Part shown: one piece after another, positions 27,249 through 37,289 of the stretch | Position numbering within the stretch: the first letter of the stretch is position 1 | Layout: each line of letters opens with the position of its first letter | Assembly: GCA_017307165.1 (NCBI GenBank) | Contig: JAFKGK010000006.1 | Span: 1 to 64,000, forward strand | Source of the DNA: Candidatus Melainabacteria bacterium | GTDB taxonomy: Bacteria; Cyanobacteriota; Vampirovibrionia; Obscuribacterales; Obscuribacteraceae | Reading direction: 5' to 3' | DNA: 64,000 nucleotides | The notes under the pieces: generated by a model | Told to the model about the DNA's origin: nothing | Database searches by the model: none | Seen by the model: the letters and a program-made list of their open reading frames with translations, nothing else | Made by a program: the position numbers and the translations under genes

Positions 27249-28208
27249 TTAGATTTCCAGTTCCTGAATACCCTGATCGTCTACTTGCAGATCGAGTACT
27301 TTAGGTGGACGCTCTTGCTGATCTGCCCAGTGCGTTATTGTTTCCAGGACTTGAGACTTTTTTTTGGCATTGACAAAAATGCATATCGATGAGCCGCCAC
27401 CCGATAGAGCACAGCCCATTATCGGGGAGCCCACCAGCAATTGTCTGAGCTGATTGAGCTCCGGCACCAATTGACTGCGATAAGGCTCGTGCAAACGATC
27501 GTCAAAGGATTCGCGCAATGCTACCTCGTCATTGCGAGCGATGGCTGCCACGAGCTGTGCGACTTTGCCGACATTGTGCTGAGCATCGGAGAGCTTGACG
27601 TTTTTGGGCAAGACCGAGCGAGACATGGCTGTGGTCAGCGAATACCACGGAGAGACGACTATAACATGCCAGTCTTTAGGCCAATTGAGTCTCTGTGTCA
27701 CTATCCGCTTGCCGTCATTGGACTGGCCGCAGACAACGAGTCCACCCAGGAGAGATGCTGCAAGGGATTCGGCGTGCCCCTCCATTTCTCGGGCTTCGGC
27801 AAGCAAAGTCGCTGTGGTGGGGATGCGATCCTGCAGCACGCTGGCTGCCCAGAGCGCCCCAAGTATTGCCGTGGCACTGGATCCAAGACCTACACCAAGG
27901 GGTATATCCGAGTCGACAATGATCCTCACGCGCTCGAGGATGTGGTGGTCGCGCTGCCAGAGGCGCGAGAGTATCGTATAAGTGAGCTTGCCTTGATCTT
28001 GCGCCAGGCTGCTTTTGTCGATCGCTCCGCGGTAGCTTATCAGCGGTATGCCTGGGTCATTTGCGGGTAGCAAAAAAAAGGACATGCGACTATAAATATT
28101 TAGAGCCAGTCCCAGGCAGTCAAGACCTGCGCCAAGATTGGAAGTGCAGCCCGGCATCTTAAGCGTTATCTTGCGTCCCTTGCCGAGCAATTTGTCTAAG
28201 TCGCTCAC
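27249..28208 (-). CDS. thrB: Homoserine kinase (GHMP family)
   Basis: Phosphorylates L-homoserine for threonine synthesis. At 319 residues it is a typical ThrB. GHMP motifs are MPGCTSNLGAGLDCLGLALN (motif 1, residues 19-38), the ATP-binding PLGVGLGSSATAILGALWAA (motif 2, near residue 106), and GCALSGGGSSICIF (motif 3). No other threonine gene is adjacent. Instead it is followed, 2 bases later, by the 988-residue membrane protein. Other GHMP kinases are possible, but the N-terminal ThrB-like pattern is strong. Confidence 0.9.
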   Translation of the reverse strand: MSDLDKLLGKGRKITLKMPGCTSNLGAGLDCLGLALNIYSRMSFFLLPANDPGIPLISYRGAIDKSSLAQDQGKLTYTILSRLWQRDHHILERVRIIVDSDIPLGVGLGSSATAILGALWAASVLQDRIPTTATLLAEAREMEGHAESLAASLLGGLVVCGQSNDGKRIVTQRLNWPKDWHVIVVSPWYSLTTAMSRSVLPKNVKLSDAQHNVGKVAQLVAAIARNDEVALRESFDDRLHEPYRSQLVPELNQLRQLLVGSPIMGCALSGGGSSICIFVNAKKKSQVLETITHWADQQERPPKVLDLQVDDQGIQELEI

Positions 28209-28278
28209 TATTTATGTCTCACGCTCGATACTCGCACAATACTAGCAATATTTGGCCCAATAAATGGAGGCTCGCATC

Positions 28279-29328
28279 ATGCGTCACCTGGTGACTGGCG
28301 GATCTGGTTTTTTGGGCCATTTACTGATCGAGCGTCTGGTCAGAGACGGGCACGATGTCATTGGCTTTGACATCCACCCTGAGAGCAATCCAGTAAATGG
28401 GGCAAAGTACATCATCGCAGACGTAACAGATGTGCAGGCAGTAGAGGCTGTTATGGCGCAAAATATAGATGTGGTGCATCATACAGCTGCATTAGTGCCT
28501 TTGACCAAGGCAGGAGAAAGATTTGAGACCGTCAATGTAGGCGGGACGAGGATTGTTGCAGAGGCTGCAGGAAAGGCCGGAGTGTCTGCCTTTGTCTTTA
28601 CCAGCTCTTCTGCAATATTTGGAGCGCCACCATGCCCGGTGACTGCCGATACCCCCTGCCATCCTCTGGAGATCTATGGCCGGAGCAAGTTAGAAGCCGA
28701 GCGCGCGGCTATGGAGATTGCAAAAAAATACGGTATGGCATTTATTGCCATCAGACCACGCACCATAATTGCTGCCGGCAGACTAGGGATTTTTCAAGTA
28801 CTGTTTGATTGGATCAGCCAGGACGTAGATATCTATGTGATCGGCTCGGGGCGCAACAAGATCCAGTTTTTGCATGCCGATGATCTTATCGATTGTCATA
28901 TGAGGCTTCTGGCTCAAGAGCGATACGGCATCTTTAATGTTGGTACCTCTGAGTTTGGCACTCTGCAAGACGACCTGGAGACCCTGATTGCGCATGCTCG
29001 ATCAAAGTCTCGCGTGCGTCATCTGCCTGCCTCTCTTGCCAGGGTTGGACTGGGTATTCTCGATCGTTTGCATTTGAGTCCTCTGGCCCCCTGGCACTAT
29101 CTCACTTATGGCGAGGATTTTTATTTTGACCTTTCTCCTCTCGAGGAGATTGGGTTTAAGTGCAAATACAGCAATACACAGATGTTGATCCAGGCTTATG
29201 ACTCATTTGTCGCTAGCAAGGGGGCAGATACGGAGAGCAAAGATCATGCTTCTCGACATCGAAGTCCCATTCAACAGGGGATTCTTCTTGGTCTAATAAA
29301 GGCTCTCTCGCGTCGCCCCGGCTCCTAG
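28279..29328 (+). CDS. NAD-dependent epimerase/dehydratase (extended SDR, 3-beta-HSD-like)
   Basis: A 349-residue extended short-chain dehydrogenase. It has the Rossmann motif VTGGSGFLGHLLIERL at the N-terminus, Asp in VIGFDIHP for NAD specificity, and the catalytic YGRSK (Tyr-x-x-x-Lys) near residue 140 with the upstream Ser in FTSSSAIFG. The ATG at 28279 is chosen because GGAGG lies 8 bases before it. The whole resembles sterol/3-beta-hydroxysteroid dehydrogenase-type SDRs more than nucleotide-sugar epimerases. A second SDR with the same motifs is fused to the GMC oxidoreductase 5 kb downstream, which suggests a shared lipid-alcohol substrate class. Confidence 0.9.
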   Translation: MRHLVTGGSGFLGHLLIERLVRDGHDVIGFDIHPESNPVNGAKYIIADVTDVQAVEAVMAQNIDVVHHTAALVPLTKAGERFETVNVGGTRIVAEAAGKAGVSAFVFTSSSAIFGAPPCPVTADTPCHPLEIYGRSKLEAERAAMEIAKKYGMAFIAIRPRTIIAAGRLGIFQVLFDWISQDVDIYVIGSGRNKIQFLHADDLIDCHMRLLAQERYGIFNVGTSEFGTLQDDLETLIAHARSKSRVRHLPASLARVGLGILDRLHLSPLAPWHYLTYGEDFYFDLSPLEEIGFKCKYSNTQMLIQAYDSFVASKGADTESKDHASRHRSPIQQGILLGLIKALSRRPGS

Positions 29329-31635: not shown

Positions 31636-33102
31636 TTGACCACTGACAAGGCTTTGCATACCTTAATCGGTCTTGCCATCAGCATCGGCCTGACGGCAGC
31701 GGTGGTGTGCAACAGCCGCATCGATGCCAGTCACCTGACGCGAGCATTTGAGTCGGCGGATTATCTGCCATGGGTGCCGCTCGCCCTCCTGGCCTATGTT
31801 ATAGGCATGCTCCTGCGAGGGGTGAGGCTGGCTGTATTGGTGGAGCGCGACAGCGTGTTGGGGACTATCGACGCTTCCAATATCGTGGCTATCGGTTACG
31901 CTGTCAACAATCTCTTGCCGGCCAGGTTAGGCGAACTCGCCCGAGCCTGGGTATTGTCGGAGCGTACAGGGCTGCCGTATGCACGGACCCTGGGTCTGAC
32001 TTTTATCGAGCGCAGCATGGATGGTCTGGTTATAGTGGCTATCTTTGCTCTTTCGGCAGCCCGTTCGCAAGATGCGATGGCCCAGGGCATGGCCGTCGTG
32101 GCCATGAGTATTTTTATGGTGGCAAGTGGCATTGCCCTAACTATGGCGCTCTTGCCCGAAATGGCCGTTGATTTTGTATCGCTCTTGACGCAACCGCTAG
32201 GGAACAAGGCCCACGATGCGGCAGTTAGTGCCATGAGTGAAATGGTCAGGGGATTTACCGTGCTGCGGGATGGCGCGCGCGCCATGCGACTAGTCATATT
32301 GAGTTTTGCCGTCTGGGCAGCTGAGGCACTGATGTTTGCCTGCATCTTGCCATGCTTTGCGCTGGCTTCCAGCTATCTGGACTATGTCAAGGCCCTGGCA
32401 GTCATGAGTGCCACCAACCTGGGCATACTGCTGCCCTCTACGCCTGGATTTGTCGGGACCTATCATATGTTTTGCAGCTCTGCCATGCAGACCTTTTTTG
32501 CCGGGACCGGTATCACTGCCTCTGTTGCTCTATCTTATGCCGTGATCGTGCATTTTATATTTTTTGCGACAGTCACCATATGGGGTGCTTTGGCGATATC
32601 GGTCTATGGTATCGAGTTTAGTGCATTTGCCTCGCTCAATCGCAGCCTGATGAAGGCCCAGTCGACTCCTGTGCAAGCGACAGCACAAATTGATAAAGCC
32701 AGCCAGCCGGATGCTTTTTGGCTGGCGCTGACCGAAGCCATACTCAGTGATTGTGCAAATCATGGCCTGGATAAAGTACCAGTGGTATCGGTCGGTCAGA
32801 TCCAGGAAGCCCGCCGCCAGAGTACCTGCTTTATGCTCAGGCAGCTGGAAGCTTTGCCGCGGTCGCTCAATCTCGCCTGTCGGCTCGCTGCAGCTTGTAT
32901 CGCTTTTGCTGCAATATGCTCGACTCTCAAACCATTTGCCGATCTTTCGCTCGATACGCGTAAGCGTGCTGTAGACTGGCTATCGTATCGCGGACCGGGG
33001 TTTGGCAGACGGTTTTTCAAGCTCCTCCGCAGTTTGCTTCTGCTTGCCTATTTTGAAAACGCCAGCGTTATTCGTAGCCTGGAAGCGAGTGAAAGCACAT
33101 GA
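31636..33102 (+). CDS. YbhN/UPF0104-type flippase-like protein with GMC-oxidase accessory C-terminus
   Basis: This 488-residue inner-membrane protein starts at TTG 31636. The first 330 residues match the UPF0104/lysylphosphatidylglycerol-synthase membrane domain: SNIVAIGYAVNNLLPARLGELARAW, TFIERSMDGLVI, LPSTPGFVGTYH. The last 110 residues (from VSVGQIQEARRQS) are not part of that family. Their end, DTRKRAVDWLSYRG then FKLLRSLLLLAYFENASV, resembles the N-terminal accessory segment of long-chain alcohol/GMC oxidases. The stop overlaps the ATG of the GMC gene by 4 bases. Lipid or polyprenol flipping or export is a plausible role. Confidence 0.85.
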   Translation: MTTDKALHTLIGLAISIGLTAAVVCNSRIDASHLTRAFESADYLPWVPLALLAYVIGMLLRGVRLAVLVERDSVLGTIDASNIVAIGYAVNNLLPARLGELARAWVLSERTGLPYARTLGLTFIERSMDGLVIVAIFALSAARSQDAMAQGMAVVAMSIFMVASGIALTMALLPEMAVDFVSLLTQPLGNKAHDAAVSAMSEMVRGFTVLRDGARAMRLVILSFAVWAAEALMFACILPCFALASSYLDYVKALAVMSATNLGILLPSTPGFVGTYHMFCSSAMQTFFAGTGITASVALSYAVIVHFIFFATVTIWGALAISVYGIEFSAFASLNRSLMKAQSTPVQATAQIDKASQPDAFWLALTEAILSDCANHGLDKVPVVSVGQIQEARRQSTCFMLRQLEALPRSLNLACRLAAACIAFAAICSTLKPFADLSLDTRKRAVDWLSYRGPGFGRRFFKLLRSLLLLAYFENASVIRSLEASEST

Positions 33103-35696
33103 AAAAATCCCAGGTCCTCATAATCGGTAGTGGCGCTGGTGGTGCAATCACTGCCCTGCGATTGGCCGAGGCTGGCTTTGACGTGACCGTGCTCGAAGAC
33201 GGCCATGCCGTGCCCGAGCAAAAACCCTTAGCCGCTCTGGCTACCACGGACTTGATGGAACTCTATTATCGTAATCGAGGCATGACGCCTATCCTGGGGC
33301 CGGTGCCGATCGGTTTTGTGCAGGGACGCCTGCTTGGCGGTAGCACCGAGATTAACTCGGGCTTTTGGCATAGACTGCCACCCGAGTTTCTCCTGCGCTG
33401 GCGGTCTCGATTTGGCCTCGATGCTGCTGGCTTTGACGAGATGGAGCAATACTATGCTTATTTGGAGGATATCCTCAAAGTAGCAAGCTTGCCTCCTGAG
33501 CAATGGCCGCCATCGACACGCATCATGCAAGATGGTATTCAGGCCATGGGCTGGTCGCATCAGCAAGTACCCAGGTGCGCGAGCAGTACGCAGAGAGCGG
33601 GCTCTTTGCCTGGCAATCCAGGTCAGGGCATGAGTGCGACGATCATACCCAGGGCGCGTGATCTGGGCGTGAAATTTGTTACTGGCGCGCGTGCCCGGAT
33701 GATTTTGCGTGATGGTCGCCGAGCTGTGGGAGTGCTGGCCGAGATGCTCGATCTGCAAGACAGAGCCACTCACCTGGAGAGGTGGTCCGCCGAGCACGTC
33801 TTTGTTTGTGCCGGTCCCACTCAGACTCCGGCATTGCTTAGGCGTTCCATGATTCGTCGTCACGTTGGCGATACTTTTCATATACATCCTATGCTCAAGA
33901 TCTCAGCTCTTTTTGACGAGCACCTGGACGCTGACAAGACTGTCTTGCCTCTCTTGCAGATAAAGGAATTTTGGCCGGATGTCTCCATGGGCGGTGCTTT
34001 TTTTAGCCCCGGGCACCTCGCCCTCAATCTAGGCGACAACTTTGATGCCAATGCTCATTTAATGAGACGTTATCGAGACATGGCCACTTATTATGTAGCC
34101 GTGCGAGGCACCGGTGCCGGTACCGTACGATCATCATTGCTGGATGATGGAGAGCCTCGTCTGAGATACCGTCTATCGGCGCACGACGTGCACAATCTCA
34201 GTCAAGGCATGGCTCGCATGTCGATGCTCCTCCTCGAGGCAGGAGCCATCAGCGTGCATCCGTGTGTCTCCGGTCTGCCTGTCATCGATAGCAAATTGGC
34301 CGCTGCACGCTATCTGGACCAAGACCTCCGACCAGCCAGCATTAGTCTCACTACCGTCCATGCTTTTTCTGCCTGTCCGATCGGCAATAATCGCTCTATG
34401 TGCGCAGCCGACTCGTTTGGCAAAATATGGGACCTGGACAATCTCTATGTCAATGACGCCAGCATCCTGCCTGATTCGCCTGGCATCAATCCTCAGGGGA
34501 CTATCATGGCACTTGCCATGCGAAATACAGAGAGATTTATCGAAAACAGGGGCAAAGATAAAACCGTACCGAGGATAACCGTGCCAGAGTTTGCAATACC
34601 AGTATTGTCGCCTCCTCCCAGTACTTGTGCCATCGTCACTGGTGCCCCCGGGTGGCTCGGCAACAGGTTAATCAGGGCTCTGGCTCTTGGTCTCGATCCT
34701 GATCTTTGTGGTCCAGACTTGATGGCTCTCAATGATAGACTGCCTCGCCCCATCAAGACTCTTACTCTCGCCGGTGCCAATGTTGGCGAGTTGAAGTCAT
34801 ACGCCGAGTCCATCGAGCCGGTGTTAGGGGATCTAAGGACTGGTGAGGGCTTGGATAGTCTTTTTGCCGATAGCCGCGGTGCCACGGTTTTTCATATAGC
34901 TGGAGTGGTGCATCCGGGATCGTTTTTTGGCGCTAGTGATTTTGACGCGATCAATGCAAGGGGCACCGAAAAGCTTGTCCAGGCTGCCCTGACCGCAGGC
35001 GTCAAGCGACTCATTTATATTTCTTCCAACAGTCCCCTGGGGGTGAATAAATCCCGCGCTGCCACCGATTTTTTTGATGATTTTTCCTCCTACAGTCCTT
35101 ATATGGGTTACGGCCGCTCCAAGCAAAAAGCCGAGCTCGCTATCAAGGCTGCCGCCGATCAAGGGCTGGAGGTAGTCATTTTGCGTCCGCCCTGGTTTTA
35201 TGGGCCGGGTCAACCACCCAGGCAGAGCTTGTTTTTTAGCCTGATACGCCAGGGCAAGGCTCCAATCGTCGGTGATGGCCTCAATCTGCGCTCGATGGCC
35301 TATGTCGATAATATCTGCCAGGCGATGCTCCTGGCAGAGCGGGTCGACAGCGCGGCCGGGCAGACCTTTTGGATCTCCGATCGGCGACCATATACGATGG
35401 TGGAAATAGTCGATACTATCGAAGACCTTTTAGAAAGTGATTTTGGTCTAGCATGCAAGCATGGGCGCATGCACTTGCCCAATCTGGCCTCGGAGGTGGC
35501 TATGGCCATGGATGCAGGGCTGCAAGCCCTGGGGATGTATCATCAAAAGGTCCACGTTTTATCAGAAATGAATAAGACCATCGCTGGCACTATAATCGGA
35601 GCTGAAAGGGGGCTTGGATATCGGCCGCAAGTGGAATTAAAAGAGGGAATGCGTCGCAGTATCGCCTGGGTGCTCGAGCGCGGGGGCAAAATCTAG
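33099..35696 (+). CDS. GMC oxidoreductase fused to an SDR (3-beta-HSD-like) domain
   Basis: This 865-residue fusion has an FAD-dependent GMC oxidoreductase at residues 1-495: GSGAGGAITALRLAEAGFDV (FAD fold), GRLLGGSTEINSGFWHRLP, and a C-terminal GMC block with ACPIGNNRSM and LYVNDASILPDSPGINPQGT. A complete extended SDR follows from about residue 505: VTGAPGWLGNRLIRAL, FHIAGVVHPG, catalytic YGRSK, RPPWFYGPGQPP. GMC and SDR dehydrogenases can both act on alcohol/ketone pairs such as sterol or terpenoid alcohols, so successive oxidations by one polypeptide are plausible. The GMC N-terminal accessory segment is absent and appears instead at the end of the upstream flippase. Confidence 0.92.
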   Translation: MKKSQVLIIGSGAGGAITALRLAEAGFDVTVLEDGHAVPEQKPLAALATTDLMELYYRNRGMTPILGPVPIGFVQGRLLGGSTEINSGFWHRLPPEFLLRWRSRFGLDAAGFDEMEQYYAYLEDILKVASLPPEQWPPSTRIMQDGIQAMGWSHQQVPRCASSTQRAGSLPGNPGQGMSATIIPRARDLGVKFVTGARARMILRDGRRAVGVLAEMLDLQDRATHLERWSAEHVFVCAGPTQTPALLRRSMIRRHVGDTFHIHPMLKISALFDEHLDADKTVLPLLQIKEFWPDVSMGGAFFSPGHLALNLGDNFDANAHLMRRYRDMATYYVAVRGTGAGTVRSSLLDDGEPRLRYRLSAHDVHNLSQGMARMSMLLLEAGAISVHPCVSGLPVIDSKLAAARYLDQDLRPASISLTTVHAFSACPIGNNRSMCAADSFGKIWDLDNLYVNDASILPDSPGINPQGTIMALAMRNTERFIENRGKDKTVPRITVPEFAIPVLSPPPSTCAIVTGAPGWLGNRLIRALALGLDPDLCGPDLMALNDRLPRPIKTLTLAGANVGELKSYAESIEPVLGDLRTGEGLDSLFADSRGATVFHIAGVVHPGSFFGASDFDAINARGTEKLVQAALTAGVKRLIYISSNSPLGVNKSRAATDFFDDFSSYSPYMGYGRSKQKAELAIKAAADQGLEVVILRPPWFYGPGQPPRQSLFFSLIRQGKAPIVGDGLNLRSMAYVDNICQAMLLAERVDSAAGQTFWISDRRPYTMVEIVDTIEDLLESDFGLACKHGRMHLPNLASEVAMAMDAGLQALGMYHQKVHVLSEMNKTIAGTIIGAERGLGYRPQVELKEGMRRSIAWVLERGGKI

Positions 35697-35756: not shown

Positions 35757-37289
35757 ATGATCGTAAGCAAGCAAATAACGGATTTGAGTGGACATGGCCG
35801 GTGGGCGGACCTTTTTGCGCCCATTCCCGACCTGACGCGTGCCATCTCCGATCTCAGGGCTGATTTGATGGACGTCCCCGTTATGACCGCTGCGGGTAAG
35901 GTCACCAATATTTTTTACAAGCTCGAGTCAGAGTCTGGGCTAAGCCGGCAAGACAAGGACGCCGTCTGGCACTGTCTCGCCCTGGTGCGTGACAACTACC
36001 TGAGACTTGAAGCGCTCGACAAGGAGAGCCCCAGCTCCGGCTATCAGCAGATGAACTGGAAGCATACCCGGGCCGAGCTAGATCAGGTGCTCGATGCGGC
36101 GCTGGTGTTGCGCCTCAGTCCTGCCGAGACTCGTGACGCTCTCATTGCCTCAATTTTTTCTGATGCCGTCAAGGACCGCAAAAATTTCATCATCCACAAT
36201 ATCCATGGCGCCGAGGCCGCAGTACAGGCCCTCTCGCTTGTGTGGGACCTGTCTCAGCCTCAACATATGGCGGCTGCCGAGCGTATCAATCTTGCCATCA
36301 AACAGCACCAGGTGGCACCACCCGAGTTTATGGCTCGCACCGTGGCCCTCATGCTCTGTCGCAAACTAGGCGTAGACTCATTTGATTCTTTTAGCCGGAC
36401 AGGCCTGATGAATTTTGACGTGGACGGCAAGCGAGTTCCGCGAGTAAAGCACACTATCCTGTCCATCTATAGCAAGATCAAGAATCCTTACAACCGAGGC
36501 TATCTCACGGCTGATCTGGGGCGGATCGACTTTACTCCCGAAGAGCGCGAATACCTCCAGATGATCGATATAGAAGACTGGTACGTGCCGCATCCGGACG
36601 TGCCCGGTTCCCGTATTGCTCATGCTCTGATCGCCGGCGATCACTCGATCAATTACAACAATCCCGATGGATTTGCCAAGATCGCATTGATACGTGGCCC
36701 CAATACCGAGTCATATTTTGAGGATGCCACCATATATGATTCGCTAGAGTCTGCTATGGCTAGTTTTGCCGACTCCTTTGATCTCTTGCTGCCTGAGGTC
36801 AAACCTATGGCTCTCAGGGGCATCAGACGGACGCACGCTGCCGTCCAGCGTGTGCTCTGTATCATGACCGAGTTGCTCTCGGGTATCACCGTCGGTCCTC
36901 GTGAAGAGTCTCACAATCTCACCGGTCAGGATCGCATCGATCAAGCATGCAGTCGCGCACGCGAAAAGCACGCTGAGCTCTTTGCTCAGACCTCGGCATG
37001 CAGCTCGGAAGCCGGTCTCAAGTATTTTGAGCGCTCTAAAGCTCGCGTAGGTGTCATGCTGCAGGAGTGGTATCAGGAGTATGGTGGCATACCCTTTAGA
37101 CCTGCCGAACATGGGCTCGTTGAGCCAGGACCCGGCAAGCTGCCTTTTTGGAATGTGCCACTTAAGTATCCAAAGGACAAAAATGGCCTGGCATCGCTGA
37201 CGGTGCTCGAGCAGACGCAGTTTGCTTTTGCAATCTGTATCCGTGAAATCGCCGTGGAGCTTTTGCGGGCAGAGCAGTGGTTTTACTGA
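35757..37289 (+). CDS. Hypothetical 510-residue protein, possibly HD-type
   Basis: Cytoplasmic, with no TM helix or signal. The region around residues 120-205 resembles an HD metal-dependent phosphohydrolase: RDALIASIFSDAVKDRKNFI, then IIHNIHGAEAAVQAL and NLAIKQHQVAPPEFMA. The order of His residues is right, but the classic HD pair is not clear. A later conserved-looking block, HALIAGDHSINYNNPDGFAK to GPNTESYFEDATIYDS, could hold further metal ligands. It follows the GMC-SDR gene with only the 17-bp repeats between, so a role in the same pathway is likely. Its last 7 bases overlap the kdpD end, coming from the other side. Confidence 0.78.
   Translation: MIVSKQITDLSGHGRWADLFAPIPDLTRAISDLRADLMDVPVMTAAGKVTNIFYKLESESGLSRQDKDAVWHCLALVRDNYLRLEALDKESPSSGYQQMNWKHTRAELDQVLDAALVLRLSPAETRDALIASIFSDAVKDRKNFIIHNIHGAEAAVQALSLVWDLSQPQHMAAAERINLAIKQHQVAPPEFMARTVALMLCRKLGVDSFDSFSRTGLMNFDVDGKRVPRVKHTILSIYSKIKNPYNRGYLTADLGRIDFTPEEREYLQMIDIEDWYVPHPDVPGSRIAHALIAGDHSINYNNPDGFAKIALIRGPNTESYFEDATIYDSLESAMASFADSFDLLLPEVKPMALRGIRRTHAAVQRVLCIMTELLSGITVGPREESHNLTGQDRIDQACSRAREKHAELFAQTSACSSEAGLKYFERSKARVGVMLQEWYQEYGGIPFRPAEHGLVEPGPGKLPFWNVPLKYPKDKNGLASLTVLEQTQFAFAICIREIAVELLRAEQWFY

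Follow-up and report, generated by a model that had tools for sequence, protein, structure and literature searches.

The C-terminal tail of a YbhN-like flippase in Obscuribacterales is very probably a GMC oxidoreductase small-subunit domain

Our analysis indicates that a YbhN-like flippase encoded in the window, the whole 64,000-nucleotide stretch of DNA analysed here, ends in a domain that is almost certainly the small-subunit or N-terminal domain of a GMC oxidoreductase. A GMC oxidase is encoded by the next gene, and the flippase very likely recruits it. An unannotated flippase tail would thereby gain a function-bearing partner, and a flippase would be physically linked to a flavoenzyme. The genes concerned belong to a multi-phylum set, found also on two rhizobial plasmids and in Planktothrix, which has the appearance of a route to modified lipid-linked pentoses that does without DprE1/DprE2. 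If this is true, candidate donors can be named for unknown pentofuranose glycans.

The flippase–tail protein (488 aa) is encoded at 31636..33102 on the forward strand, as are all window features with coordinates given below up to the end of the cassette. The start codon of this ORF is TTG and is uncertain because the orthologues have longer N-termini. Residues 10-317 (31663..32586) form an LPG_synthase_TM / YbhN-like flippase domain, which matches PF03706 at 1.7e-35 (123.4 bits against a cut-off of 33.4, profile positions 2-302 of 302), and the ORF also matches the flippase-like domain TIGR00374 (3.7e-13), so that the assignment made in the earlier note was correct. PF03706 matches 22/22 of the fusion proteins, and lipid flipping is the presumed function of the domain, judged from its family. 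The full-length flippase used as a query against plasmids gave a single match, which was unrelated. C-terminal to the flippase domain, some 130 residues (aa 358-488, 32707..33099) form a helical domain, which was assigned as GMC small-subunit-type from profile matches and a model; the tail model (aa 342-488) had a pLDDT of 87.6 and six predicted helices. The signature helix RRFFKLLRSLLLLAYF (aa 458-473, 33007..33054) includes the most conserved residues of the tail, among them its first R and both residues of RS. The stop codon of the flippase–tail gene overlaps the start codon of the GMC gene in an ATGA (33099..33102), which couples both genes; this 4-base overlap, the gene coordinates and the helix motif are as the earlier note had given them. 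The flippase–tail fusion was found in 22 surveyed loci, and within the family of the window it is present in 16 of 50 genomes, that is, in 15 besides that of the window.

The decisive lead to the identity of the tail was a genome of the same class as the window (G096), in which a freestanding 139-aa homologue of the tail is encoded directly 5' of the orthologous GMC gene. A query profile made of Obscuribacterales flippase tails only was compared by hhalign with freestanding small subunits encoded just 5' of GMC genes (99.0%, score 108.3) and with N-domains in cis on orthologous GMCs (97.5%, score 75.7). Column-shuffled controls (200 each) reached maxima of 18.9 and 20.7, respectively, reversed alignments scored 10-11 and an unrelated family scored 16. 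Chance or convergence as the source of the likeness is rejected because the real scores far exceed those of the shuffled controls. A profile of 54 tails matched a small subunit on an Alteromonas plasmid (33.5 bits), which adjoins a GMC gene, is annotated as 'gluconate 2-dehydrogenase subunit 3' and has a TAT-like signal at its start. The same profile also matched a 665-aa GMC flavoprotein from Tsukamurella, in the segment that precedes its FAD fold (28.5 bits). This segment reads FADLS..R..lFkrLRnIALLAYY and agrees with the FRALK-LA-FAY pattern that the earlier note had given for long-chain alcohol oxidases, in which the accessory domain presumably stands in cis directly before the FAD fold. 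The window tail resembles the Tsukamurella segment, but it is carried in trans on the flippase, whereas in Tsukamurella the segment immediately precedes the FAD fold. The proposal that the flippase ends in the accessory domain found in cis on other GMCs was therefore supported by the profile comparison, in which the tail matched GMC-linked domains.

The tail might instead be a regulatory domain specific to the flippase, with a convergent helical sequence that merely resembles GMC accessory domains. The window tail taken alone scores 13.1-13.8 bits against PF13618, under the gathering cut-off of 23.4, and it gave no match above cut-off against Pfam, NCBIfam or PDB sequences. A Foldseek search of the tail model against the PDB found nothing below E 1.8, although small helical domains are hard for Foldseek. 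These results would fit a regulatory domain, but they are outweighed by the profile scores, which were 76-108 where no control exceeded about 21, by the homologues, freestanding or in cis, that occupy the same position among the genes, and by co-conservation of the tail with the short-chain dehydrogenase SDRc in 16/16 genomes; we consider a regulatory domain very improbable. PF13618 matches 4/22 flippase fusions at E<=0.01 (best 0.0011). A freestanding tail from Burkholderiales (locus L135) exceeds the PF13618 cut-off with 29.8 bits; it shares 36% identity with the tail of the window protein across 118 aligned columns. At the sequence level, the tail is distantly Gluconate_2-dh3-like. As in BcGDH gamma and FdhS, which are Gluconate_2-dh3 proteins, a small helical partner is encoded beside a GMC. 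Unlike these proteins, the window tail is cytoplasmic, has no TAT signal, is fused to a flippase and scores below the Pfam cut-off. Among the small-subunit sequences read, no TAT signal was seen except in the annotated Alteromonas subunit. One further match of the tail profile (G311) was rejected, as it is a 33-aa frame containing stops and has no cassette.

The gene set was surveyed by the SDR domain in 80 loci, and its composition was counted over 82 loci. The tail-type domain occurs in three placements. As a separate gene of about 115-140 codons it stands before the GMC gene in Planktothrix, Lyngbya, Okeania, Aminicenantes and others. In cis, mostly in Verrucomicrobia, it takes up the N-terminal 120-150 residues of a GMC that is about 610-630 aa long. 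At the C-terminus of a flippase it is found in Obscuribacterales, Myxococcota and a few Pseudomonadota. In a GMC tree of 60 rows, every flippase-fused row falls in one clade with support of 100/100. The fusion of flippase and tail therefore probably arose once. The same clade also includes L135, in which the tail is unfused and a UbiA gene lies just upstream. Sister to this clade is a group that contains free-subunit forms, among them L121 from a Myxococcota MAG, in which the flippase (336 aa) and the tail are separate genes neighbouring a GMC–SDR fusion. This arrangement would look like the stage that preceded the fusion of flippase and tail. Overlong ORFs in the GC-rich loci L074, L100 and L135 seemed to be extra fusions and were discarded on manual frame checks. 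In a Deltaproteobacteria MAG (L142:1026-1361), a small-subunit ORF enters a GMC-type GSGPGGA motif with its last helices gone, which could reflect a deletion, a fusion or a misassembly.

How the tail is positioned on the GMC was predicted from an orthologous locus (L070), in which tail and GMC are in one frame with a stop codon alone between them. AlphaFold was given this tail–stop–GMC sequence with the stop read as glycine and 90 aligned rows, and the read-through model, in which the chain connection is imposed, had a pLDDT of 92.0 and a pTM of 0.92. If the GMC and the linker (80% of residues) were perfect, this pTM would still require a tail mean of at least about 0.6. The position of the tail relative to the GMC is therefore predicted with confidence. 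The solved structures nearest to the model are FdhL of fructose dehydrogenase and GDH-alpha of Burkholderia glucose dehydrogenase. Both are the large subunits of GMC enzymes whose small subunit is a protein of its own. The earlier note had suggested that the flippase recruits the oxidase. From the identity of the tail and the predicted docking, for which the contact was modelled on a connected chain, we regard recruitment as highly probable.

The tail may, however, do no more than anchor or stabilise the GMC, in the manner of a hitchhiker-like folding partner, with the flippase as a convenient anchor whose own substrate is unrelated. Small subunits of FAD dehydrogenases are required for the folding of the catalytic subunit (PMC6719666), and in other lineages the subunit is soluble or in cis and anchors nothing, both of which agree with a pure folding role. 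Against this, in L121, which belongs to the sister group of the fused clade, a separate flippase from the same family and a separate tail gene are neighbours, and SMR transporters are found in other cassettes, which indicates that a transport function accompanies the gene set. We therefore consider it rather unlikely that the flippase is an anchor only.

The ORF at 33099-35696 encodes a fusion of a GMC oxidoreductase and an extended SDR. The earlier note had missed this fusion. The GMC domain (aa 1-498, 33099..34593) matches PF00732 and PF05199 and has no signal peptide. Its N-terminus is MKKS-QVLIIGSGAGG, and the first FAD strand thus begins after four residues, as the earlier note had observed. 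The GMC His/Asn pair is His421 and Asn464 in the window and is kept in nearly all relatives, in which the motifs are HxFSxCPxG and GxNPQG. Relatives also have a C-x5-C-x3-C loop of 3Fe-4S-type spacing, which corresponds to 33576..33626 in the window. The 3Fe-4S ligands of Burkholderia glucose dehydrogenase, Cys212/218/222, have the same spacing (PMC6719666). The loop is found in all other flippase-fused GMCs examined, in L135 and L136, and in the rhizobial and Alteromonas GMCs. The window GMC aligns the first Cys only; two of the three cysteines are lost and the reading frame is otherwise intact. The cyanobacterial and verrucomicrobial GMCs have no cysteines at this loop. Because the window, cyanobacterial and verrucomicrobial GMCs are without the Cys triad, an Fe-S cluster is not essential to the pathway. 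SDRc, the extended SDR, is fused C-terminally to the GMC (aa 505-865, 34611..35693) and has a TGxxGWLG NAD motif and a catalytic YxxxK. In the other flippase-cassette loci of the family in which both genes are complete, GMC and SDRc are separate genes. The same fusion is found in L121 (2179-4938); elsewhere the two are neighbouring but distinct genes. Since L121 and the window are in sister groups of the GMC tree, the GMC–SDR fusion arose at least twice, and the two cases are apparently independent.

The conserved set comprises the small subunit, the GMC, SDRc and SDR28. SDR28, the second SDR, is at 28264..29328 in the window, and its orthologue adjoins SDRc in Verrucomicrobia, cyanobacteria and rhizobia. 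Within the family of the window, SDRc and the flippase–tail protein occur in the identical 16/50 genomes. Additional cassette genes encode UbiA (34/82 loci), a flippase (23/82) or an SMR transporter (11/82), and in none of the 82 loci does the flippase occur with UbiA or SMR. The UbiA proteins are of the polyprenyl-/decaprenyl-phosphate phosphoribosyltransferase class (PPPRS/DPPRS; NF008977), with NF008977 scores of 264.9 bits in G096 and 233.8 in Planktothrix; the verrucomicrobial HAD-UbiA matches PDB 8j8j at 6.9e-31. UbiA is encoded elsewhere in all flippase-cassette genomes tested. In the genome of the window it is on another contig (G000:C11:559460-560302; 243.8 bits, cut-off 234), and the neighbourhood of that gene is without a GMC or SDR cassette. 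Within the family, UbiA is present in 11/11 cassette genomes and in 19/25 cassette-less relatives, so that its co-occurrence is weak evidence. Some cassettes have PMT_2-like proteins; for the window itself, no gene was identified as encoding a GT-C enzyme. On pNGR234a and pMLa, SDR28, an SMR transporter, a 125-aa homologue of the tail and, directly after it, the GMC form a row, and on pNGR234a SDRc and HAD-UbiA are close to it. The cassette is found in cyanobacteria, Verrucomicrobia, Myxococcota and nodulating rhizobia.

Because the conserved neighbours are SDRs and a UbiA of the polyprenyl-phosphate phosphoribosyltransferase type, the substrate is somewhat more probably a polyprenyl-phosphate pentose than any other compound. 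By the same token, we lean towards a complex in which the flippase-borne small subunit docks the GMC–SDR protein and which acts on a pentose linked to polyprenyl phosphate. UbiA and the flippase are never found together in one locus, so that for the flippase lineage the case for a pentose depends on orthology with other phyla. We infer the following order of steps. UbiA would use PRPP to form lipid-P-ribose. The GMC, with FAD and its His/Asn pair, would oxidise a ring hydroxyl of the lipid-linked pentose, and the SDR or SDRs would reduce the resulting ketone to give a changed pentose, in the manner of DprE1/DprE2. The cytoplasmic GMC–SDR protein would dock on the flippase through the small subunit welded to it, and the LPG_synthase_TM domain would flip the completed lipid-sugar to the outside, where a GT-C transferase would use it. 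It is plausible that the oxidase hands its product directly to the flippase.

The earlier note had placed the oxidase in a long-chain-alcohol context, with which the conserved neighbours do not agree. In such a context, the tail would still be a GMC small subunit, the complex would oxidise a long-chain alcohol, a sterol or another hydrophobic alcohol, and the flippase would supply or remove the lipid. The PDB sequence nearest to the window GMC is indeed a cholesterol oxidase, SDRc scores as 3Beta_HSD and OleD-like, and the Tsukamurella GMC has the domain in cis. The SDRs score OleD/HpnA-like and epimerase-like alike, and none is above an NCBIfam cut-off, which, like the similarity to cholesterol oxidase, speaks against a pentose substrate. 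However, the surveyed loci have no recurrent acyl-CoA, aldehyde dehydrogenase or sterol gene, and the only recurrent non-oxidoreductase partners are UbiA of the PPPRS class, SMR, DUF218 and PMT_2-type proteins. Oxidation of a long-chain alcohol or sterol is therefore unlikely.

A route through a lipid-linked pentose can be compared with known systems. HAD-UbiA, an SDR epimerase, a flippase and a GT-C add pentofuranoses outside the membrane, and DprE1/DprE2 homologues have been reported for the arabinofuranose cases (PMC11127046). The cassettes are similar to the three-component systems of Citrobacter youngae O1/O2 in having an SDR, a flippase and, in some cassettes, putative GT-C-like membrane proteins nearby, and the HAD-UbiA of the verrucomicrobial and rhizobial cassettes has the same domain order as the Citrobacter polyprenyl phosphoribose synthase (PMC11127046). 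Unlike the Citrobacter systems, the cassette adds a GMC with its small subunit and a second SDR, its flippase belongs to the SMR or LPG_synthase_TM type where Citrobacter has MATE, and in the window an oxidoreductase subunit is part of the flippase polypeptide. The mycobacterial DPA pathway (UbiA Rv3806c, DprE1/DprE2 and the SMR-type Rv3789) and the related noeCNHOP route in rhizobia (PMC5080398) share with the cassette a PRPP-dependent UbiA, the logic of flavin oxidase and SDR, and a small flippase. The oxidase is a GMC in the cassette, whereas DprE1 has the FAD_binding_4/ALO fold. The DprE1-type ALO domain PF04030 was not found in the genome of the window, in that of Planktothrix (G345) or in G096; Corynebacterium glutamicum, the positive control, matched, and so did some relatives. 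The simplest reading is that GMC and SDR would fill the oxidase and reductase roles in place of DprE1/DprE2.

It is conceivable, though quite improbable, that the GMC oxidises and the fused SDR re-reduces UbiA-made lipid-P-ribose while docked on the flippase and that, as a second SDR (SDR28) is available, two ring carbons are changed to give a pentofuranose new to bacterial glycans, such as lyxofuranose. Lyxofuranose is not known in bacterial glycans (PMC11127046).

The gene set is widespread and apparently undescribed. Literature searches found no paper on a GMC oxidoreductase with decaprenyl and UbiA, none on gluconate 2-dehydrogenase subunit 3 with a flippase, and nothing under the gene names y4nG-y4nM. 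In Sinorhizobium fredii NGR234, the cassette (pNGR234a 295269-314666) is close to nodS, and the 125-aa small subunit is unannotated both there and on pMLa of Mesorhizobium japonicum. In a MAG of the anammox planctomycete Kuenenia stuttgartiensis (L129), the cassette includes a 642-aa GMC of the cis type together with HAD-UbiA. In Obscuribacterales, a conserved 510-aa protein is encoded downstream of the cassette (35757..37289, forward strand in the window); it matches no Pfam family above cut-off, and its orthologues in 13 Obscuribacterales loci are 51-64% identical. In the window (27249-29328), as in several Obscuribacterales loci, SDR28 is beside a divergent homoserine-kinase-like gene.
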